Below, piece by piece: positions 10,213 to 29,805 of a stretch of 64,000 bases of DNA. The position numbers and the translations under genes were made by a program. Source of the DNA: a virus. Where the stretch lies: the IMG/VR virus record IMGVR_UViG_3300027817_000001, positions 1-64,000 of that record; one strand, written 5' to 3'. How positions within the stretch are numbered: position 1 is the stretch's first letter; the number at the start of each line of letters is the position of its first letter. A model generated the notes under the pieces. The model was not told the DNA's origin. It did no database searches and worked only from the letters and a program-made list of their open reading frames with translations.

Positions 10213-10782
10213 ATGCCAGTCACATCTAACGACGTCGCCAACCAAGCAATCTTGATGATCGGCGGCAATCAGCCGCTGGTCACCGGGTTGGCGCCGACGT
10301 TCGACAACTCCACCACAGGCAAGGCGCTGCAGAAGCTTTACGTCCCCTGCGTGCAGACGGTCGGCCGGCAATTTGGCTGGGACATGGCGCGGCGTCTGAT
10401 CGCGCTGACGCTATCCGGCAACCCGGCGAATGTGCTGTGGCAGTTCGAGTACCTCTACCCGGCGAACGGCGTCCAAATCTGGCAGCTCGTGCCACCGGTG
10501 ATCTCGGACCCGAACAACCCGCTGCCGACCACCTATTCGGTCGGGAACACCCTGGTCGGAGGGGTACAGACCAAGGTGATCTGGTCAAACCTCCAGGGCG
10601 CGCTGGCGAATTACAACAACAACCCGACCGAGAATGTCTGGGATCCGGGTTTCCGCGAGGCGGTGGTGCGGCTGCTCGCGTCCGAGCTGGCAATGGCGAT
10701 CGCCGGCAAGCCGGACGTCTCCCAAGGCTACCTTTCCAGCGGTGGCGCTTTTGAAAAGATCGCTGAAAGCAGGGATAGCTGA
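10213..10782 (+). CDS. tail adaptor (tubular protein A-like), copy 1
   Basis: This 189-aa protein has the helical adaptor pattern: DVANQAILMIGG, then a Tyr-containing helix (LQKLYVPCVQTVGRQFGW), FEYLYPANGV and a C-terminal helix (GFREAVVRLLASELAMAIAG). The family forms the ring that joins the portal to the short tail in T7-like phages. It is the first of three related genes here. It starts one base after the tail-spike stop and overlaps the next gene by one base. Confidence 0.75.
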   Translation: MPVTSNDVANQAILMIGGNQPLVTGLAPTFDNSTTGKALQKLYVPCVQTVGRQFGWDMARRLIALTLSGNPANVLWQFEYLYPANGVQIWQLVPPVISDPNNPLPTTYSVGNTLVGGVQTKVIWSNLQGALANYNNNPTENVWDPGFREAVVRLLASELAMAIAGKPDVSQGYLSSGGAFEKIAESRDS

Positions 10783-11402
10783 TGCCTCTCGCCCTAAGCT
10801 CGCCATCCGACATCATCAATCTGTCCCTGACCCGGATCGGGTACAAAGGGGATCGCGTTGGATCTCTGTATGAGGGGTCGGAGGCGTCCAAGTACGCGCT
10901 CGACATCTACGCCCAGACCAGGGATCAGATGCTGCGCGCCGGCGATTGGGGATTTGCTGAACGGAACGTCAACCTGACGCTGCTCAAGCAGGCGCCAGCC
11001 TCCGGCTATTTCCCGCCGAGTTCGTGGGATGGGACGGTCAATCCGCCGCCACCATGGCGTTACGAGTATGCTTATCCTCAGGATGCTTTGAAAGTTCGCT
11101 CGGTCAAGCCGGTGCCGATGTTCGTCATGGATTTCGATCCTCAGCCGAGGCCATTCGCGGTCGAGAACGACAATTATTTCGTCCCCTCCCAAAAGGTGAT
11201 CCTCACCAACGTACCGAACGCCCAATTGGTGTATACAGGACAGGTCACGGACCCGCAGGTCTGGGAAGCCGATTTTGTCGATGCGCTGTCTGCGCTTCTT
11301 GGTAGGCTTTTGGCTCCGGTTCTGCTCAATATGGATGCTGCGAAATTTGCAGCGGCTGACGCGGCGCAGGCCGAGGAGAAGGCCGACGCACTACGAGGAT
11401 AG
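10782..11402 (+). CDS. tail adaptor (tubular protein A-like), copy 2
   Basis: The 206-aa product shares the family skeleton with the other two copies: DIINLSLTRIGYKG, YEGSEASKYALDIYAQTRD, WGFAERNVNLTLL, WRYEYAYPQDALKVR and a C-terminal FVDALSALLGRLLAP helix. It is the most typical tubular protein A of the three. A hairpin and an endonuclease VII-type gene follow before copy 3, so the three adaptors were probably contiguous before that insertion. Confidence 0.8.
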   Translation: MPLALSSPSDIINLSLTRIGYKGDRVGSLYEGSEASKYALDIYAQTRDQMLRAGDWGFAERNVNLTLLKQAPASGYFPPSSWDGTVNPPPPWRYEYAYPQDALKVRSVKPVPMFVMDFDPQPRPFAVENDNYFVPSQKVILTNVPNAQLVYTGQVTDPQVWEADFVDALSALLGRLLAPVLLNMDAAKFAAADAAQAEEKADALRG

Positions 11403-11412
11403 AAAAACGACA

Positions 11413-11447
11413 AGGGCCACAACCCGTTTGCACCGGGGAGCGGCCCT
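11413..11447 (+). terminator. strong hairpin between adaptor copy 2 and the endonuclease gene
   Basis: AGGGCC (11413-11418) pairs with GGCCCT (11442-11447), and CCCG (11423-11426) can pair with CGGG (11434-11437) inside it. No T-run follows, so a classical intrinsic terminator is not certain. It may instead be an RNA-processing or stability element, or be part of the inserted homing gene. Confidence 0.45.
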
Positions 11448-11475
11448 CTAACCACAACGATGAGGAGCATCGAAG

Positions 11476-12003
11476 ATGGCTGAAGCCGGAATATCACATG
11501 TAATTATTGAGTGCACTAAGTGTCTCAAGCCAAAGCATCAATGCGACTTCTTTCTTGATAAGAGGCGCAAGTACCCAGCATCCATAAAACAGCCGTGCAG
11601 GTTATGCACGTCGGATAAAGTCAAAGCGCAAAGGTCGATAAATCCAGACCGCATACGACTTCAAGAGCGCGAATCGTGGAAGCGCAGATTTGACATCAAT
11701 GGAGAAAAGAAACGGTTCAGCGCGATGGGGTGGCGCCTAAAATACAAATTTGGGATAACCTTGGCCGACTTCTTGGCTATGATCGAAAAACAGGAAGGTA
11801 GATGCGCGATCTGCCAGATCGATGTCAAATCGCTTACGATCGGGAAAGGTCGTAGAGAGGCCGCCTGCGTTGATCACGATCACGAAACAGGTAAAATTCG
11901 AGGCGTGCTCTGCCATTCGTGTAACACTGGAATTGGTTTGTTGGGAGATAGCATTGGTATACTTGAAAAAGCGATCAAGTATCTAAAGGAGAGCTCGCCA
12001 TGA
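11476..12003 (+). CDS. endonuclease VII-type HNH protein
   Basis: The 175-aa product has N-terminal zinc knuckles (CTKCLKPKHQ and CRLC), then the endonuclease VII core: FLAMIEKQEGRCAICQID, a histidine motif VDHDHETGKIRGVLCHSCN and a GIGLLGDS tail. This is the recombination endonuclease VII family, which occurs as free-standing homing genes in phages. The gene is visibly richer in A+T than the flanking adaptors. A GAGGAGC site lies 12 bases upstream, and the stop overlaps adaptor copy 3 (ATGA). Confidence 0.85.
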   Translation: MAEAGISHVIIECTKCLKPKHQCDFFLDKRRKYPASIKQPCRLCTSDKVKAQRSINPDRIRLQERESWKRRFDINGEKKRFSAMGWRLKYKFGITLADFLAMIEKQEGRCAICQIDVKSLTIGKGRREAACVDHDHETGKIRGVLCHSCNTGIGLLGDSIGILEKAIKYLKESSP

Positions 12004-12899
12004 GTGGGACGCCAGCCGACATCGCGAATCAGGCGCTTGATGCCGCTGGCATTGATGCCACGATCGGTGATTTAGAAGAGGGTACAAAGCCGGCGCAAGT
12101 TCTCTTGCGAGCTTATAGCCAATGCTTGAGGCAGTTGCTCAGGGCGTGTCCGTGGGATTTCGCACGAACTCAGGCGCCGCTGGTCTTGCTTGGCGACGCG
12201 ACTGGCAACACGATCGGCGTTGGCAACCATATCCAAGAGCCATGGATTTATTGCTACCGGTATCCGATCGACTGCATGAAGCTTCGCTATATCCCCTGGA
12301 ATTACGACCAGCACGCCGGCACTCCGCCGGGCAACATCGCGATTCCGACGAATATCCCGTTGACCACGGCGACCGGGCTTCCGAACTTCGTCGGTCGCCG
12401 GCTGCGGCCGAGCCGCTTCCTGATAGGCAATGACCCGAACTATCCGTCTCCTCCTGGATCCTCGTTCGGCGAGGTGCAGGGCGAATCGCCGGTAGGCTCG
12501 ACCGTCATCATGTCGAACGTGCAGAAGGCGATCGGCATCTACACCCGATTCTTGCCTTATCCCAGCAATTGGGACCCGCTGTTTCGCGCGGCGTTCGTGT
12601 CCTATCTGGCGAGCGAGATCGCGCTGCCGCTGGCGAAGATGTCCGTGGTCGGCGCGAAGCAGGCGCTGCAGCTCCGCAAGGAGAACATAGAGATCGCGAA
12701 GGCGAAGATCAAAGAGGCCCGGGTCATCGACGGGAACGAGCAGATGGCATCGAGCGATATCTCGGTGGATTGGATGCGCACGCGGCGCAGCGGTGGCTGG
12801 GGCACAGGCCGCGGCGGCTGGGGCGGCGGCGATGAAGGCCCGGGCACCTATGGCGGCGGCTATGACAGCCTAGCACTGGCTGACGGGAGCGTGTTCTAG
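12000..12899 (+). CDS. tail adaptor (tubular protein A-like), copy 3, with Gly-rich tail
   Basis: This 299-aa protein repeats the adaptor skeleton: DIANQALDAAGID, LRAYSQCLRQLLRACPWDFA, WIYCYRYPIDCMKLRYIPW and FRAAFVSYLASEIALPLA. It has an inserted Pro-rich loop and a C-terminal Gly/Trp/Arg tail (GGWGTGRGGWGGG). It precedes the nozzle gene, as tubular A precedes tubular B in T7. The longer tail separates it from copies 1 and 2. Confidence 0.8.
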   Translation: MSGTPADIANQALDAAGIDATIGDLEEGTKPAQVLLRAYSQCLRQLLRACPWDFARTQAPLVLLGDATGNTIGVGNHIQEPWIYCYRYPIDCMKLRYIPWNYDQHAGTPPGNIAIPTNIPLTTATGLPNFVGRRLRPSRFLIGNDPNYPSPPGSSFGEVQGESPVGSTVIMSNVQKAIGIYTRFLPYPSNWDPLFRAAFVSYLASEIALPLAKMSVVGAKQALQLRKENIEIAKAKIKEARVIDGNEQMASSDISVDWMRTRRSGGWGTGRGGWGGGDEGPGTYGGGYDSLALADGSVF

Positions 12900-21096: not shown

Positions 21097-24000
21097 GTGG
21101 ATAAAGAACCGAGCCCGTTGGACGACATCGGCGACGTCGGACCGCCGATCGGCCAGGACACCAGCCAGAGCTTCGGACCAGGATCGGGCCCAACCGTCCT
21201 GAACACGGTGACGGACAGCTTTGCGCCACAAGGCGGAGGAACCGGCGCCAGCGCGCTCGGCACGGCGCTGCAGGAAACCGGGCCGGCGCGGTTCGCCACA
21301 CCGCTCGACGATATCGGCGAGATCGCGCCGGAAGAAGTGACGGTCAAGGGCGCGGTGACGCGCGGCGCGGTGCACGGCGCGGTGCCCGCAGCCGGCGCGA
21401 TGGCTGGTGCTGGCGCAGGCGCTGAAGCGGGTGGCGCCGTGGGCGCGTTTCTCGGCCCGTGGGGCGCGCTTGCAGGCGGCGTGATTGGCGGCATCGGTGG
21501 CGCGATCGGCGGCGGCTTTGCTGCCGACAAGGCACAGGACTACACGCTATCCAAGCTGCCGGATAGCTTTGTGGATGCGTTCGGCCAAGGCGAGAGGCAG
21601 CAGCGGCTCGACCAGCAGGAACGACCCGTTGCCTCGTTTGTCGGCGGCATGATTCCGTTCGCGCTGACCATGCAGCCGACCAAGTTGGCTTTTAGGGCCA
21701 CGGGCTTGCCGGAAAATGCCACAACCATTCAAAAGCTGATGGCGAACCCAGTCACGGCCCGACTGTTCGGCGGCGGTGTGATGGGCGGGATGGAGCTGGG
21801 CCAAGAGGCGGCACAGGGCCAGGTCGACTGGCGCAAGGTCGGCATCGCGACCGGATTCGGCGTTGTGTTCAACAAGCCGAACGCGTTGGGCGAGGCAATC
21901 ACAGAGATGGGCGCATCGCCGGCGCGGCGGATGCTCGGCCGGCCAGAACCGGCGGCGCGGCCGCCGACCATCGCACAGGCCGGCGACACCAAGATCATGG
22001 GCCCGGGCATCACCGAGGCGGTGTTCCAGGGCAGCCACGAGCAGGCGCCGGAAGCCGCGATGACGGCGCAGCAGACCGCGCGCGACGAGCAGGCGGCCCG
22101 CGGCGAGCACCCGGAGCCGAATCCGGCTGACATCGCCCGGCAGATGGAGCCGGAACTGTTCGCTCGCTATGACGATCTGGTGAGCCGTCGGGATGCGTTT
22201 CGTAAGTGGATTGACGATTACAACCGACCGTCGCCCGAGGCCATAGCCGAGGTTGATGGCAGGGTTGCTGATCTGCAAAAGCAACTCGACGAGCATGTCG
22301 CGGAGCGCGGCGGATATGCGGCTGGGCCTGAGGCCCGGCGGCTGCGCGCGCAGATCAGGGAGACACAGAAAGAGCGCGACGAATTGGCGGGGCGGGCAGC
22401 AACGTTCTCGCGCGGCGAGGCGCAGGACACCGCAGACCTTGCTTTGGCCCGTAAGCATTTGATGGATACCGACTTCGAACTTAGGGACGTCCAGAAAGAG
22501 GTCGCGGCCGCACATCGGCGCGCCGCCGACGCCGCCGGCACCGAGACCGTCCCGGCCGAGCCGCACGCCACCATCGCCGACATGCTGGCAGAACAGGAGA
22601 ACGCACCCAATGCCCAAGCGCCAGAACAAGGAGCCGGAGCATCTGGCGTTCCAGCAGGCGGTGAAGCTGGGCCTGAAGCCGGAGCAGTGCCTGGAGCTGC
22701 TGGTGCTGTCGTTTCTGGCCCTCAACGTTCCATTGGCGATCAGCGCGCCTTCATCGCGGACGACGTCGCCCGACGATTGATCGCCGCGGGGCGTCCGGAG
22801 GACGAAGCTCGAGCGGCGGCTCAATTGGTCGCGTCGCGCTATGTCACGCGCGCCGGACGGTTCGAGGGCAAGCTTGGCTCGGCCGAGGAGCTTTATGCCA
22901 AGGAGAGCGCGGCTATCGCGGGCCCCGGCGGCAAGGCGCTCCCGCCGGCGTTTCCACCGCGCGAGGTGACCGAAGCGGCGGAGACCGCTGCTCGCGTGAA
23001 GGCCGCGACGCCAGCCGCTCAACCGGGCATTCTTGCCAACGATTTCGAGAGCGCTGACCGGATCAAAAACGAGTGGCGAAAGGCCACCCCATTCACCGGA
23101 TCGGTTGAGGATTTCATCGCCGCGTCGAAGCCCAACCAGGAATCGCTGGCCGCGGTCGGCAAGCAGCTGGCGGATGAACTCGGGCTGACGTTCAAAGATC
23201 CCGGCGTCAAGGCGGACGGGCCGGGCAAGGGACTGGATCGGCTGCAAAGCAAGGCAAAGCGGTTCGGCGCGATCGGCTCGGTGACCGACCAGGTGCGAGC
23301 CGGGTTCGACGTGAAGACGCCAGCGCAGGCAGACCAGATCGTGCAGAGGATGGGAGAGAAATTCCAGGTGACGGACGAGGGCTGGCAGATGACGCCGGCC
23401 GGGTATTTCGACCGGAAAGTCTATGTCCGATTCCCGGACGGCATGATTGGCGAAGTCCAGATGTGGCCGCCCGGCATGCTTGCCACCAAGAAGGTTGGAC
23501 ACAAGCTGTATGAAGGCGCGCGCGAGCTGCCGCCGTGGCATCCGCTGATTCCGGAGTTCAACCGGACGCAAGCCGAGGTCTACGAGCCGGTGCGTGCCGC
23601 GCTTTCGGCCGAATGGAATGCGGTTTTGGGCAGGGGCGGCAACGAACCGAACCTCTTGGCGAATGCCCCCGCTGAGAGCACGGCGGCATTGGATCCGACG
23701 TCGGCAGCGTTAACTTCTTCCCACGAGCCTTTGACCAGCGCCCATGCCTCCGAAGGAGTCCAGAAGGCCGGGAGCCCGTCCCAAGAACAGGCTTTGATGT
23801 CTGACATGTTTGGGATCTCCAACGAAAATGTAGGAGAACATGCGTCCCCCGTCAACGCCGCATTGACCGCTCGCGACAAAATCGACGAACTTTCTCCGGC
23901 CGAGCAGAAGACGCAGCTGCCGACATATACCGCAGCGGCCGAGCAATCGCCGCAGGGCCGCGACCAGCCGGCCGGCGTGTTCATGTTCGACCCCACCAAG

Positions 24001-27000
24001 CTTGAGGTCGACGCCAAGCGCTTCCAGTTCAAGACCGGCGGGGACGAATACGGCGTCACCGGCGCGTTGCGCAACGTCCAGAAATGGGATCCGGCCAAGG
24101 CGCAATCGATCATTGTGTGGGAGCAGGCGGACGGCAAGCTGTTCGTGGCCGATGGTCACCAGCGTTCCGGGCTCGCTCGCCGCCTGGTCGAACAGGGCAA
24201 GGCGAAGGACGTCCAACTGCCGGGCGTGCTCTACCGCGAGAAGGATGGCATTTCCGCCGACGACATCCGCGCCATTGCGGCCGTGACAAACATTGCCAAC
24301 GGCTCGGGCAAGGCGATCGACGGCGCCAAGGTGCTGCGGGAGCGGCCGGACCTTCTCGACGAATCGCTGCCGCTGTCCGCCGGCAAGGGCAAGCAGGCCG
24401 CGGCGCTGGCGCGGCTCGGTGACGAAGCGTTTCGGATGGTGGTCAACGATGTGGTGCCGGAGCACTATGGTGCCGTAGTCGGCGACCTGCTGCCGAAAGA
24501 TCCGGACCGCCAGGTGGCCGCGCTGAAGGCGATCGCGCGGTTCGAGCCGAAGAACGCGGACGAGGCCGCGGTGCTGACCCAGCGCGTGGCCCAGGCCGAA
24601 CTGGCGAAGAAGGAGGAGGGCGCGCAAACCTCCATGTTCGGCGACCTTGAGACGCCAGAGTCGACCGCCGGCGAGGAGATGAAGATTGTTGGCCGGGCGA
24701 TCGCCGACCTCAAGAAAGACAAGTCGCTGTTCGCGCGCGTGCTCGCAAATGCGGAGCGGATCGAAAAAACCGGCTCGACAATTGAGCGCGAGGCGGCGCA
24801 GAATGTCTCAAACGACGCTGAGGTTTTTGCCAAGACGCTAACATCAGAGGCCTATTCCTCGGGACCGGTGCGCACCGAGCTCGTGGCGGCCGCAAGGGAC
24901 CTGAAAAATGGAAAATCATCCATCGGAGAAGCTACACAGCGAATACTCGCTGCCCTCCGGGAGCAGGCTGAGACGCATGGCGCTGATCGGAATGGCGCTG
25001 TCGGAGCAGGGGCGAAAGAGCGAGAGCTCGCCCAAACCGACGTCGAAAGGGTCAAGGACCACGAAGGCTACCCAATCGACCGAGGCGAAATAAGCCACGA
25101 TTTGCATGATGAGTGGGCGGACCTGATCCGCGATCTAAAGGAGGGCGGCGAAGACGTCCCGTCGTCCCCGGCGCTGCGCCTGGCGCTTAAGAAGTTCGAT
25201 GATCTGATCAAGCAGAACGATTCGCGGCTGGTCATCCGGCGTGGCCAGATCGCCGACGTCATAGGCTCGCTCGAAAAAGCCAAGACCGACATCGCCGAGA
25301 AATTCGAGACTGGCAGCGGCCGCGCCACGGCGAAAAGCCTGTCCGGCCGCGTGATCGAGGCCAAGATCGACGACGAGATTGTGGGGCTGCGCCGCACCGA
25401 GAAAGAGCTGCAGGACTTCTTTGGCGAGGAGGAGCCGGGCGACCTGTTCGCAGCCGAGCCCGGCGCCGAAGGCAAGCCGCAAGCCCTGATCCCGGGCGTC
25501 GCGCCGGTCACCGCGCGTGACCGCATCCAGGCGCTGGCCAACAAGCCGCTTGCTCCAAAGAAGGCGCAGAAGGCCGCCGATGAAGGGCTGTTCGGCTCGT
25601 CGAAGGATCAGAAGGAACTGTTTCAGCACAAAGCAGATCACGATGATGATCTGATTAGAATGCTTAGAGGCGCTCTGGAAACTGACGAATACAGCTCAGT
25701 TGATAGTGCCGGAAGACGTGTTCCTGCATCTTCCCGCGAACTACTTGATCGCATGTCCAAAAAATACGGGGAAGACACTGATTTAGATCAGTGGTCAGAG
25801 AAAGATTACGACGCATATTTTGCTGCAGTCGACCGTGAAGCTGCAGTCAATAGCGAGACATTGGAAAATGCTGGAATAACGCAATCTTCAGCCAAAGCAG
25901 CCAAAGATGATGGCTTTGATACTTCACGGGAGTTTTGGCATGGCACGACGCACGGAATATTCACGGATTTTCGAGAGTCGACTGCTGAGAACGACGTATT
26001 AGGGCCGGCCATCTATCTCGGATCAACAAAGGGGCTTTCAGATTTCTATGGTCCTGGCCGCGGCGGTGACCTGCTCGGCCCATTCCATGTCCGCGGGAAT
26101 ATCGTGAACGAGAACACGATGGTACCGAGGGATCCAGACAAGTATCCGGGGCAGATGGCGAAAGCGTCTCAGGTCATGGGGACGCTCAAGCTCGCTCTGG
26201 AAGACAAGCGAATGCGTGCACCATGGGGCAAGGACATGACACCAGCGCAATATGCGCGCGAGTTCTGGAAGCGGCGCGGCGTCGATGGCTACGATTCCGG
26301 TTTTGAAGTCGCAATATACGACCCGAAGAACATCAGAGCTGGGTTTTCAATTGATGGCGGCACAATTCGCCCATCGACAGAACTCAATCAAGTCATGCGC
26401 GGCAAGATCAAGATCGGCTCCGGCCGTCCGCTGATCTCGCTGCTCAAAGATGCCAACGCCTCGACCTTCATCCATGAGACCGGCCATGAGTGGCTGGAGC
26501 AGATGGTGAAAGATGCCGCGCACCCCGACGTTTCGGATGTCGTGCGCAAGGACATGGCGTCCACGCTGGAATGGATGGGATTGGAAAAGCCAGAGGACCT
26601 GCAAGAAACTACCAAAGCTGGAAAATTGACTGCCAGAGCAACAAAGGCTCACGAGAAATTCGCCCGTGGATTCGAGCAATACATGCGCGAGGGCGTGGCT
26701 CCATCGAAAGAACTCGCCGGCGTATTTGCGCAATTCCGCAACTGGCTGCTCCAGATCTATCAGAGCCTGAAGGGTCTCGGATCAGAGATCAGCCCGGAGA
26801 TCCGCGGCGTGTTCGACCGCATGCTGGAGATGGAACCGCAGCGCACCGTCATTGCGCCGGAGCGGCTGCAGCCCGATCTGCTGCACGACATCCACGAGGC
26901 CGACGCGGCACACACTCCGCCGCACGAGGCCGAGCCGGCGATGGACCGCATCATTGCGGAACGAGATCGCTACATCACAGAGCAACCCCCGGAGATTCAG

Positions 27001-29805
27001 CGTGAGCTCGAAGCCGCAGCCCAGAAAGTCCAAGCCGCAGAAGGACCAGCAGGAGAAGCCGCAGGCGCTCCCGGAGAAGCTTTCGCAAGCCCTGGCGGAC
27101 CGGGACAAATGGGCGAAGGTGGCGGCGGACCCGGACCTGAGCCCGGCGGCGGCGGTGGTGGCGAGGAACATGCAGCGCAGCAGCCAAGCAGCGGCGGCGC
27201 TGGGGCAGAAGGCAACGCCGGACCAGACCCTCGATCCCAACTTGATCGTGACCCTGGGACTGCCCTCGCCCCCGGGCCAGCAGCCTCCGTTGGCGGGCGA
27301 TCTTCCCCCTTCACCGACAAAGCCGGAAACATTCGGCTAGAGAACCTGACGAACAGCGCGGACGTCAGACAGGCCATCCACGACGCGGCCGACGAGAGCA
27401 ACGACTTCATCGGCGACCGTCGGGGCGTGGTCACCGACGGTCAGGTCTCCGATCTCGCCAACGACATCGGTCTGCCCGGCGCGATGGACATGGTGTCGAA
27501 ATGGGTGAAGGGGCAGGCCTACAACGCCGAGCAGGTGGTGGTGCTCCGTAGGCTGCTGCGCTCCTCGGCGGTTGATCTGTCCGAGAAGATGAAGCAGGCC
27601 GCGATCGGCACTGACGAGGACGTGATGGCCTACGCCGAGGCTCGAGATCGGCATCAACTCATTCAGCGGACCGTCACAGGCGCCACGGCAGAGGCCGGCC
27701 GGACGCTGCGGGCATTCCGGAACATCGCTGGCGAGGAAGGTTCGGCGGCCAAGGCCATTGATGAGCTGGTGAAGATCGGCACCGGCAAGACGCTGTTTCA
27801 GCTCAAGGCTGAGGCGAAGATGGGCGCCAAGCTCGACACCCCGGAGAAGATTTCGCGGTTCATGCAAGATGCACAGAAACGCAACTTCGGCCGTGGCGTG
27901 CTGGAATATTTCGTCAACGCGCTGATCTCGGGACCTATTACCCACATCACCTACGGCGTCGGCAATGAGGTATCGTCGATCCTGCGCGCCGGCCCGGAGA
28001 CCCTTGCGGCAGCGGCGATCGGCAAGGTCCGCCAGGCGCTGGGCCGCGAGGGCGAGGTGGTGCACGCCGGCGAGGCGCTGGCGCAGTACAAAGCACGCTA
28101 CGGGACCATTCCGGCCTCAATCCAATCCGCTATGGAGGCGGCCAGGACCGGCATGACGACGCTGTTGCCCGGGGAAGAGATCGCACCGGGCCATGGCGCC
28201 CTGACCCCGTTCGAAGGCGACGCCAGCCTTGCAACTGCAAAATCCATAACCAACGCGCCGGTGTCATGGAACGAGGCGATGGGGAGCGCGTTCGGCGCGG
28301 TACGCGGGATCAAGGATGCGTTCTGGGTCGGCGGCACGCTGAATGACAAGCCGATCGGGCTGGAATATTCGCCCCTTGGCCAGATCCCCGACGTGCGGGT
28401 GAGTAGCGTCAACATCCCGATCGGCACCGCGATTCGGCTGCCCGGCCGGCTAGTCGCGGCCGAGCACAGCTTCTTCCGCACCGCAAACTATTCCATGGAA
28501 CGCGCCGCGGAGGCCTACCGCGCTGCCACCGACGAAGGCCTGACCGGAACGGCGCGAGACCAGCGCATCGCCCAGATCGAACTCAACCCGAGCCAGGAGC
28601 AGATGGACCGCTGGATCACGGCTTCAAGTCACGCCACGCTGATGGGCCAGGGCGGCGCGTTCGTGCGCAAGCTCAGCGCGATGATGAACCACGAATTCAA
28701 TGTCCCGGGCATCGGCCCGACCCCGCTGCTGAAGTTCATGGACCCGTTCATCAAGATCTCGGGCAACATCATCGACCAGTCCCTGGTTCAGCGAACCCCG
28801 ATCGGTTTGCTGTCGACCGAGCTGCGCGCCGACCTGATGGGGAAAAACGGGACCATTGCCCAGGACAAGGCGCAGGCCCGGATGCTGGTCGGAACTGGGC
28901 TGGCGTTGCTCTCGGGCAGCCTTGCGGCGCAGGGCTATGTGACCGGCTCGGGCCCGTCGGACCCCAAGGAAGCCGCGATGTGGCAGCTGGCCGGCAACCA
29001 GGCGCACAGCGTCAGGATCGGGGATTTCTGGTATCAGATCAACAAGCTTGGACCCTATGGCGTGCTGACCGGGATCGCGGCCGACCTCTACGAGGTGGCG
29101 CACGACGCTACGGATGGCGACATGCTGAAAGCTGCGATGCATTTGCAGCACGCGTTCACCCAGAACATCCTCGACGAATCGTTCATGAAAGGCCCATCTG
29201 ACCTGATCAAGGCGGTGGACGATCCCGGCCGCTATGGTGAGAACTACATCAAGAGCTTCGCGTCATCGTTCACCCCGTTCTCGTCTGGCCTCTACCAGCT
29301 CAACCGGATGAACGATCCCTATCAGCGGGAAACCCGGTCCGTGGTCGACGCGATCAAGGCCAAGGTTCCGGGCCTGTCCGAAACACTGATGCCGCGGCGG
29401 GACGTGTGGGGCCAGCCGATGCCGAGCCGGGAGGGCGCCGGATACCTCACATCGATCTACGTGCAGAAGATGAACGCGGACCCGGTGAACCAAGCCATGC
29501 TCGATGCGCAGTTCTTCCCCGGGCAGGTCGAGAAGAAAATCCGGAACATCGAACTGACTCCCGAGGAATACGACGATTTTGCTCGGATTGCTGGAACTTT
29601 GACCAAGATCAACTTGGACAAACTTGTCGCATCACCGATGTGGCAAGATATGCCTTTGGGAGCCAAGCAAGACTGGATCAAGCTCGCGGTAGAGCAGAAC
29701 CGTGAGATCGCGCGCGGCATCATCATGTACAAGCTCTACCCGCACATTTGGATCGACGCTCAAAAGCAAGCTGCCCAATGGAAGGTGGAGGGGAAGAAGC
29801 GATGA
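21097..29805 (+). CDS. 2,902-aa polyvalent ejection protein (NTase-like, ParB-like, ADP-ribosyltransferase-like and metallopeptidase modules)
   Basis: The start is GTG at 21097. Modules in order: a Gly/Ala-zipper membrane segment (about 85-150); coiled coil (350-480); a RelA/SpoT-like nucleotidyltransferase fold (about 700-810: GYFDRKVYVRFPDG, IGEVQMWPP, GHKLYEGAR); a ParB/DarB-like domain (about 955-1090: VADGHQRSGLARRL); an ADP-ribosyltransferase-like domain (about 1605-1750: FWHGTTHG, GPAIYLGS); a zinc peptidase (HETGH at 1793-1797); and a C-terminal virion region (about 2080-2902). This matches the phage polyvalent-protein class, injected with DNA to disarm host defences. Module boundaries are approximate. 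Three +1-frame ORFs lie inside it. Confidence 0.8.
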   Translation: MDKEPSPLDDIGDVGPPIGQDTSQSFGPGSGPTVLNTVTDSFAPQGGGTGASALGTALQETGPARFATPLDDIGEIAPEEVTVKGAVTRGAVHGAVPAAGAMAGAGAGAEAGGAVGAFLGPWGALAGGVIGGIGGAIGGGFAADKAQDYTLSKLPDSFVDAFGQGERQQRLDQQERPVASFVGGMIPFALTMQPTKLAFRATGLPENATTIQKLMANPVTARLFGGGVMGGMELGQEAAQGQVDWRKVGIATGFGVVFNKPNALGEAITEMGASPARRMLGRPEPAARPPTIAQAGDTKIMGPGITEAVFQGSHEQAPEAAMTAQQTARDEQAARGEHPEPNPADIARQMEPELFARYDDLVSRRDAFRKWIDDYNRPSPEAIAEVDGRVADLQKQLDEHVAERGGYAAGPEARRLRAQIRETQKERDELAGRAATFSRGEAQDTADLALARKHLMDTDFELRDVQKEVAAAHRRAADAAGTETVPAEPHATIADMLAEQENAPNAQAPEQGAGASGVPAGGEAGPEAGAVPGAAGAVVSGPQRSIGDQRAFIADDVARRLIAAGRPEDEARAAAQLVASRYVTRAGRFEGKLGSAEELYAKESAAIAGPGGKALPPAFPPREVTEAAETAARVKAATPAAQPGILANDFESADRIKNEWRKATPFTGSVEDFIAASKPNQESLAAVGKQLADELGLTFKDPGVKADGPGKGLDRLQSKAKRFGAIGSVTDQVRAGFDVKTPAQADQIVQRMGEKFQVTDEGWQMTPAGYFDRKVYVRFPDGMIGEVQMWPPGMLATKKVGHKLYEGARELPPWHPLIPEFNRTQAEVYEPVRAALSAEWNAVLGRGGNEPNLLANAPAESTAALDPTSAALTSSHEPLTSAHASEGVQKAGSPSQEQALMSDMFGISNENVGEHASPVNAALTARDKIDELSPAEQKTQLPTYTAAAEQSPQGRDQPAGVFMFDPTKLEVDAKRFQFKTGGDEYGVTGALRNVQKWDPAKAQSIIVWEQADGKLFVADGHQRSGLARRLVEQGKAKDVQLPGVLYREKDGISADDIRAIAAVTNIANGSGKAIDGAKVLRERPDLLDESLPLSAGKGKQAAALARLGDEAFRMVVNDVVPEHYGAVVGDLLPKDPDRQVAALKAIARFEPKNADEAAVLTQRVAQAELAKKEEGAQTSMFGDLETPESTAGEEMKIVGRAIADLKKDKSLFARVLANAERIEKTGSTIEREAAQNVSNDAEVFAKTLTSEAYSSGPVRTELVAAARDLKNGKSSIGEATQRILAALREQAETHGADRNGAVGAGAKERELAQTDVERVKDHEGYPIDRGEISHDLHDEWADLIRDLKEGGEDVPSSPALRLALKKFDDLIKQNDSRLVIRRGQIADVIGSLEKAKTDIAEKFETGSGRATAKSLSGRVIEAKIDDEIVGLRRTEKELQDFFGEEEPGDLFAAEPGAEGKPQALIPGVAPVTARDRIQALANKPLAPKKAQKAADEGLFGSSKDQKELFQHKADHDDDLIRMLRGALETDEYSSVDSAGRRVPASSRELLDRMSKKYGEDTDLDQWSEKDYDAYFAAVDREAAVNSETLENAGITQSSAKAAKDDGFDTSREFWHGTTHGIFTDFRESTAENDVLGPAIYLGSTKGLSDFYGPGRGGDLLGPFHVRGNIVNENTMVPRDPDKYPGQMAKASQVMGTLKLALEDKRMRAPWGKDMTPAQYAREFWKRRGVDGYDSGFEVAIYDPKNIRAGFSIDGGTIRPSTELNQVMRGKIKIGSGRPLISLLKDANASTFIHETGHEWLEQMVKDAAHPDVSDVVRKDMASTLEWMGLEKPEDLQETTKAGKLTARATKAHEKFARGFEQYMREGVAPSKELAGVFAQFRNWLLQIYQSLKGLGSEISPEIRGVFDRMLEMEPQRTVIAPERLQPDLLHDIHEADAAHTPPHEAEPAMDRIIAERDRYITEQPPEIQRELEAAAQKVQAAEGPAGEAAGAPGEAFASPGGPGQMGEGGGGPGPEPGGGGGGEEHAAQQPSSGGAGAEGNAGPDPRSQLDRDPGTALAPGPAASVGGRSSPFTDKAGNIRLENLTNSADVRQAIHDAADESNDFIGDRRGVVTDGQVSDLANDIGLPGAMDMVSKWVKGQAYNAEQVVVLRRLLRSSAVDLSEKMKQAAIGTDEDVMAYAEARDRHQLIQRTVTGATAEAGRTLRAFRNIAGEEGSAAKAIDELVKIGTGKTLFQLKAEAKMGAKLDTPEKISRFMQDAQKRNFGRGVLEYFVNALISGPITHITYGVGNEVSSILRAGPETLAAAAIGKVRQALGREGEVVHAGEALAQYKARYGTIPASIQSAMEAARTGMTTLLPGEEIAPGHGALTPFEGDASLATAKSITNAPVSWNEAMGSAFGAVRGIKDAFWVGGTLNDKPIGLEYSPLGQIPDVRVSSVNIPIGTAIRLPGRLVAAEHSFFRTANYSMERAAEAYRAATDEGLTGTARDQRIAQIELNPSQEQMDRWITASSHATLMGQGGAFVRKLSAMMNHEFNVPGIGPTPLLKFMDPFIKISGNIIDQSLVQRTPIGLLSTELRADLMGKNGTIAQDKAQARMLVGTGLALLSGSLAAQGYVTGSGPSDPKEAAMWQLAGNQAHSVRIGDFWYQINKLGPYGVLTGIAADLYEVAHDATDGDMLKAAMHLQHAFTQNILDESFMKGPSDLIKAVDDPGRYGENYIKSFASSFTPFSSGLYQLNRMNDPYQRETRSVVDAIKAKVPGLSETLMPRRDVWGQPMPSREGAGYLTSIYVQKMNADPVNQAMLDAQFFPGQVEKKIRNIELTPEEYDDFARIAGTLTKINLDKLVASPMWQDMPLGAKQDWIKLAVEQNREIARGIIMYKLYPHIWIDAQKQAAQWKVEGKKR
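22610..22780 (+). CDS. overprinted +1-frame gene inside the polyvalent gene (56 aa)
   Basis: ATG at 22610 has AGGAG 10 bases upstream. The product has an ordered look (MPKRQNKEPEHLAFQQAVKL, then LELLVLSFLALNV). Almost all codons in its first two thirds end in G or C, as in real genes here. Over the same bases the long frame encodes Ala/Gly/Pro repeats whose codons mostly end in A or T. It is probably a genuine small gene with a charged helix and a hydrophobic segment. Function is unknown. Confidence 0.6.
   Translation: MPKRQNKEPEHLAFQQAVKLGLKPEQCLELLVLSFLALNVPLAISAPSSRTTSPDD
24908..25093 (+). CDS. overprinted +1-frame gene inside the polyvalent gene (61 aa)
   Basis: ATG at 24908 has AAGGG about 9 bases upstream. 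The product is Ser/Lys/Thr-rich and basic (RLRRMALIGMALSEQGRK, then SSPKPTSKGSRTTKATQ). From the sixth codon on, most codons end in G or C, while the host frame in the same interval uses many A/T-ending codons. The evidence is weaker than for the other two nested genes because the host frame remains protein-like here. Confidence 0.45.
   Translation: MENHPSEKLHSEYSLPSGSRLRRMALIGMALSEQGRKSESSPKPTSKGSRTTKATQSTEAK
27002..27340 (+). CDS. overprinted +1-frame gene inside the polyvalent gene (112 aa)
   Basis: GTG at 27002 has GGAG 7 bases upstream. The product has a Lys/Pro/Gln-rich start, a helical middle (LPEKLSQALADRDKWAKVAA, LSPAAAVVARNMQRSSQAAA) and a Pro-rich end. Its codons follow the strong G/C-ending habit of the genome, whereas the long frame reads as Gly/Ala/Pro low complexity with many A-ending codons. 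It is the clearest of the three nested genes. Function is unknown. Confidence 0.6.
   Translation: MSSKPQPRKSKPQKDQQEKPQALPEKLSQALADRDKWAKVAADPDLSPAAAVVARNMQRSSQAAAALGQKATPDQTLDPNLIVTLGLPSPPGQQPPLAGDLPPSPTKPETFG

Follow-up and report, generated by a model that had tools for sequence, protein, structure and literature searches.

Positions 27,002 to 27,340 of the analysed stretch (hereafter the window, 64,000 nucleotides of a virus record of 64,792 bases) almost certainly hold a genuine gene under selection, which lies in the +1 frame inside a 2902-aa ORF (21097-29805). It is regarded as a gene within a gene instead of a chance frame because some 70 related viruses have kept the same arrangement. 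In the explanation favoured as a whole (probability roughly 0.85, drawn from sequence, with no expression, mass-spectrometry or ribosome data), ribosomes would initiate internally at a nested Shine-Dalgarno (SD) site and GTG on the giant-gene mRNA, and the product, made beside the giant protein, would be a small helical hairpin, basic and soluble. Over the nested gene, the main frame would contribute nothing but a flexible Gly/Pro/Ala-rich linker that joins two conserved domains, and it is this that lets the two messages coexist.

The nested gene and its host gene

The features on which the argument rests are as follows.

21097..29805, + strand: giant host ORF, 2902 aa, gp16-like internal virion protein D / polyvalent ejection protein (PHROG 6651, tblastn)
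26398..26997, + strand: upstream domain of the giant protein, HExxH (HETGH at 26473-26487), metallopeptidase-like (alignment of nine sequences; PHROG 9880)
26991..26994, + strand: Shine-Dalgarno-like GGAG, 7 nt 5' of the nested GTG at 27002-27004 (from the sequence)
27001..27312, + strand: main-frame Gly/Ala/Pro/Glu-rich linker over the nested-gene DNA (from translation and composition)
27002..27340, + strand: nested +1 gene (family 1), 112 aa, GTG start, TAG at 27338-27340
27313..27906, + strand: downstream main-frame domain (alignment of eight sequences; present at 60 viral loci)

Judged from its sequence, the giant gene encodes an ejection protein of the gp16-like kind that has been enlarged into a "polyvalent" protein and includes an HExxH domain; the assignment is based on gene order together with the C-terminal match to internal virion protein D. 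The PHROG 6651 internal virion protein matches aa 2540-2847 (4.5e-21), and tblastn of the C-terminal part retrieved internal virion protein D of Desulfovibrio phage ProddE and other podoviruses, the homology by which a gp16-like internal virion protein is recognised. Upstream of the giant gene lie a tail tubular-like gene, two small internal virion protein genes and a transglycosylase-domain gene. PHROG 9880 matches aa 1765-1936 (2.7e-48), and the HETGH motif is aligned in the conserved domain, as required for an HExxH assignment; no Pfam match was obtained for the giant protein at E 0.01. Polyvalent proteins with an HExxH-type domain are a described class (PMC5512222), and it is only by the motif and by analogy with that class that the upstream domain may be called zincin-like, in the absence of profile, fold or activity data.

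A profile of the nested protein recovered 68 distinct homologues in viral contigs, all on the strand of the giant gene and all in the +1 frame, and wherever a locus extends to both sides of the nested ORF, the giant ORF runs through it unbroken. The first four relatives all keep the +1 protein, and each has an ATG or GTG in the corresponding position. Some 140 loci came from scans by the flanking main-frame domains, which take no account of the nested frame, and the nested-protein profile was applied to them afterwards; either family 1 or a second nested family is present in every giant ORF sampled that has the two flanking domains. Two further scans, seeded by nested-protein alignments alone, returned only +1 copies within long ORFs, and neither a standalone copy of the nested gene nor a split giant gene was found in the collections searched. 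One relative sits in the sequenced genome of Rhizobium sp. BK313, and a search of 395 genomes of its family and 385 of its class revealed no further prophage of the kind, only Rhizobium sp. BK313 itself. Among named phages, no match to the nested proteins was obtained by tblastn, and the nested-gene profile matched none of ten named-phage loci.

The first-pass annotation had offered absence of a protein from 27002 and of frame-specific conservation in related phages as grounds for refuting the gene; the conservation half of this test was run and strongly passed. Across 277 related pairs, nested identity exceeds main-frame identity over the same DNA in 259 (mean 0.52 versus 0.41), while upstream of the nested gene the main frame is conserved at 0.59 and the +1 frame at only 0.31. 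These pairs, selected for 45-90% nested identity, are not independent; the same trend is seen in 25 non-overlapping pairs. In close pairs, the excess of main-frame third-position changes vanishes within the overlap and the most-changed site becomes the nested third position: between loci L006 and L078, changes by codon position are 33, 20 and 44 in the nested frame, as against 36, 25 and 94 in the main frame upstream. A few close pairs (the window with L002, and L044 with L047) go against the trend, the main frame being equally or better conserved. From these comparisons both frames appear to be constrained, the nested one usually more so.

The nested protein, a second family and possible roles

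The nested protein of the window (112 aa, 11.8 kDa, pI 9.4) has no cysteine and no hydrophobic segment, the highest 19-residue Kyte-Doolittle mean being 0.49 for this protein and 1.23 over the family. A spanin or other membrane protein was rejected as a candidate on the lack of a hydrophobic segment. AlphaFold, supplied with 60 homologues, models helices at residues 23-42 and 48-71 that pair as a hairpin (core pLDDT near 97), flanked by low-confidence or disordered tails; the product is thus predicted to be a soluble helical hairpin. Membership of a known family could not be established, as Pfam, PHROGs and PDB sequences gave no consistent match, only scattered weak matches to single members. 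Fold searches retrieved generic hairpins, none of them a credible relative (best E 0.93 in the PDB and 0.33 among viral models in BFVD).

In six giant genes with both flanking domains and without family 1, another +1 ORF adjoins the downstream domain. Its protein carries the motif RRxLLxxRxKA...PDLPQ...KxAxDxADxALGLQDA and is also predicted to form a hairpin, and most of these ORFs have GGAGG or GAGG 5' of an ATG or GTG. The following loci represent this second nested +1 family.

L025: 5741-5995
L023: 5759-5995
L116: 7124-7336
L035: 5798-5998
L105: 3989-4294

Both families occur at five loci (L033, L035, L100, L105 and L123) and also on contig 3300010233_000280 (L182, L188), so that at least six giant genes carry the two together. 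Family 2 comes after family 1 in four of the five loci and in the contig; at L105, it lies about 2.6 kb upstream of family 1. When the second family is counted, no sampled giant gene with both flanking domains is without a nested gene. Homology between the two families is suggestive but not significant from their sequences (hhalign probability 10%, E 0.003, in a single comparison).

The role of the product remains a matter of inference. It may be made alongside the giant protein and work with it, for example as an accessory in assembly, packaging or ejection or as a regulator of the HExxH peptidase-like domain. Such a partnership is favoured by the fixed location inside the giant gene; it is inferred from position and co-occurrence alone and is put forward only tentatively. 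A real nested gene might equally serve a purpose of its own, such as host takeover or anti-defence, as small basic proteins without relatives often do. The proposal that polyvalent proteins act as conflict effectors (PMC5512222) lends some support to independent action, which stays possible without being probable, but three things speak against it: the nested gene keeps its place in the giant gene even between very divergent phages, no standalone copy turned up in the collections searched, and it co-occurs with a second nested hairpin in the same gene. Since the giant protein is of the ejection type, a partner not yet known could matter for the assembly, processing or delivery of such virion proteins.

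Start signals, codon signature and alternative readings of the frame

The GTG at 27002 with GGAG 7 bases upstream, to which the first-pass annotation had drawn attention, is present exactly as claimed. Family-1 genes start with ATG in 61 and GTG in 6 of the 68 homologues, and an SD match of at least 4 nt precedes 49 of 67 starts, as compared to 6.6% of the same codon in the +1 frame elsewhere in these genes. The former count is inflated, as SD strength helped to pick the starts; a fairer figure is 32 SD sites at 48 first starts following a nearby upstream +1 stop. Such a stop falls 0-5 codons before the start in 32 of the 68, and directly before the ATG in some (for example, L004 and L071).

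These signals bear on programmed +1 frameshifting, by which some ribosomes translating the giant protein would shift into the nested frame and end there, giving the N-terminal part with a hairpin tail. In the window, the +1 frame upstream of the nested GTG is open for 77 codons and could feed the nested frame; on the other hand, the conserved starts and SD sites, together with the near upstream +1 stops in 32 of 68 relatives, make frameshifting improbable for the family. Internal initiation is preferred on the strength of these SD sites and stops, and is considered highly probable so far as sequence can tell. With those 77 open codons and a GTG start, a frameshift fusion is not excluded by the sequence of this genome alone, and only the analogy with its relatives would exclude it.

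The codon signature points to the same frame as the start signals. Main-frame GC1/2/3 over 27010-27339 is 0.845/0.70/0.51, as against 0.676/0.473/0.746 for the whole gene; given this departure, the region shows the normal signature in +1, and the earlier description of G/C-ending codons in the nested frame and foreign, A-ending codons in the long frame holds good. A codon-likelihood scan in 60-codon windows favours +1 in those starting at 26947-27127 (by up to 0.29 nats per codon) and elsewhere in the giant gene only in two marginal ones, at 22627 and 23572; the same scan gave no comparable run of +1-favoured windows in ten named-phage giant genes. GC3 peaks in the nested frame in 64 of 68 homologues. 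The nested frame has the normal codon habits of the genome and, more often than not, the higher conservation, so it is the Gly/Pro/Ala linker that behaves as the yielding frame, and the nested protein need not be the newcomer.

Openness of the frame, by comparison, proves little, and the possibility had to be weighed that the frame is open by chance in GC-rich DNA, beneath a Gly/Pro/Ala linker, and yields no product. The description of the nested frame as the largest +1 ORF is correct within the giant gene and carries no weight as evidence, its size being ordinary: by the first-start rule it begins at TTG 26852 and reaches 162 aa, and the +2 frame holds an ORF of 171 aa, so its length is unremarkable. 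The nested stretch stays open in 1625 of 2000 whole-gene synonymous codon permutations (81%) and in 1238 of 5000 local ones (25%), and the window holds many longer spurious ORFs; ORF length was hence dropped as proof of a nested gene. Against a chance frame stand the frame-specific protein conservation at 68 loci, the altered substitution positions, the start-site signals and the nested-frame codon signature. The comparative data refute chance unless all loci share some other +1-specific constraint, which leaves it hardly tenable. The overprinting proposed for 27002-27340 is supported by conservation, start-site signals and substitution pattern, whereas the openness of the frame and the helical look of its product, as originally cited, are weak arguments. 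Two open frames, frame-specific purifying selection and translation start signals of its own together satisfy the sequence-based criteria for an overprinted gene.

Two compensating frameshifts or assembly errors, which would make the +1 stretch really part of the giant protein and could account for its normal codon signature, are ruled out by a main frame that is continuous in all two-sided relatives from independent records (unrelated metagenomes and the sequenced Rhizobium genome), by the nested ORFs having their own start, SD and stop, and by the failure to find any relative whose giant protein runs through the nested frame.

Known systems, origin and neighbouring observations

The Rz1-in-Rz spanin genes of lambda and other phages are also small genes nested in +1 inside another phage gene with a start of their own; Rz1 is a secreted lipoprotein, and its partner is the inner-membrane spanin. 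The gene at 27002-27340 shares the small size, the frame, the phage-gene setting and the separate start, but its protein has no hydrophobic segment and the host gene encodes a putative giant virion protein; a test for an Rz1-type spanin (signal peptide, lipobox, hydrophobic segment) was not met. Overprinted genes of phiX174 and other viruses (PMC8227390) are likewise same-strand, with one frame of low complexity and probably flexible. In contrast, the present family belongs to tailed phages and sits where two domains of an ejection protein are linked, and a second nested family recurs at another linker. The host ORF itself, with its gp16-like C-terminus and HExxH domain, resembles internal virion protein D and the polyvalent proteins (PMC5512222), in the account of which a text search found no mention of overlapping genes. 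The open-licence literature, of which few abstracts were covered, yielded no account of the nested gene. Annotation rules discard nested ORFs, and the family has been overlooked as a result. It constitutes a well-supported overlapping gene family of tailed phages, kept over deep divergence, and illustrates neatly, at module joints, how one stretch of natural DNA can encode a folded protein and, in the other frame, a flexible linker.

A homologous HExxH region is present in a giant gene of Bordetella phage BPP-1 (bbp10) and in one of Caulobacter phage RapA (gp039c), in each case downstream of internal virion and transglycosylase-type genes, but these have neither a linker at that place nor a nested ORF. 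Their lack of both, and the ordinary codons of the nested frame as opposed to the linker, fit an origin in which a small gene was captured at a module joint and then read through in another frame. Gain of the linker and nested gene at once fits also, and the direction is not fixed, as no standalone or split arrangement was found. It is conceivable, though rather unlikely as a general rule, that giant ejection-protein genes systematically hold small +1 helical-hairpin genes in interdomain linkers at one or two module joints, and that the small genes, which would first have lain between modules, are perhaps the older, module fusion having read through them in another frame, so that the linkers arose by overprinting of existing genes.

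Several minor observations concern the same records. Under another Gly/Ala linker of the giant gene, window positions 22610-22780 (+ strand) hold a 56-codon +1 ORF whose translation includes a hydrophobic stretch (LELLVLSFLALNVPLAI); +1 is weakly favoured there by the codon scan, at 22627, and no counterpart was seen in the linkers examined in L003 and L004. Within the giant gene, GC3 is low (0.36-0.45) over 25550-26050, probably because this module was acquired recently, and a putative ADP-ribosyltransferase-like domain is suggested by the look of its translation (FWHGTTHGIFTDF...). Limnohabitans phage DC33 (L161, PQ492659.1) is listed under Inoviridae, yet its record is of 39 kb with a giant HExxH-containing gene, and the label looks wrong. 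Among the tail-protein genes of the window lies an endonuclease VII-like gene (11476-12003; PHROG 2914), and over 10213-12899 three separate ORFs match one tail-protein family (PHROG 394), which suggests duplication.
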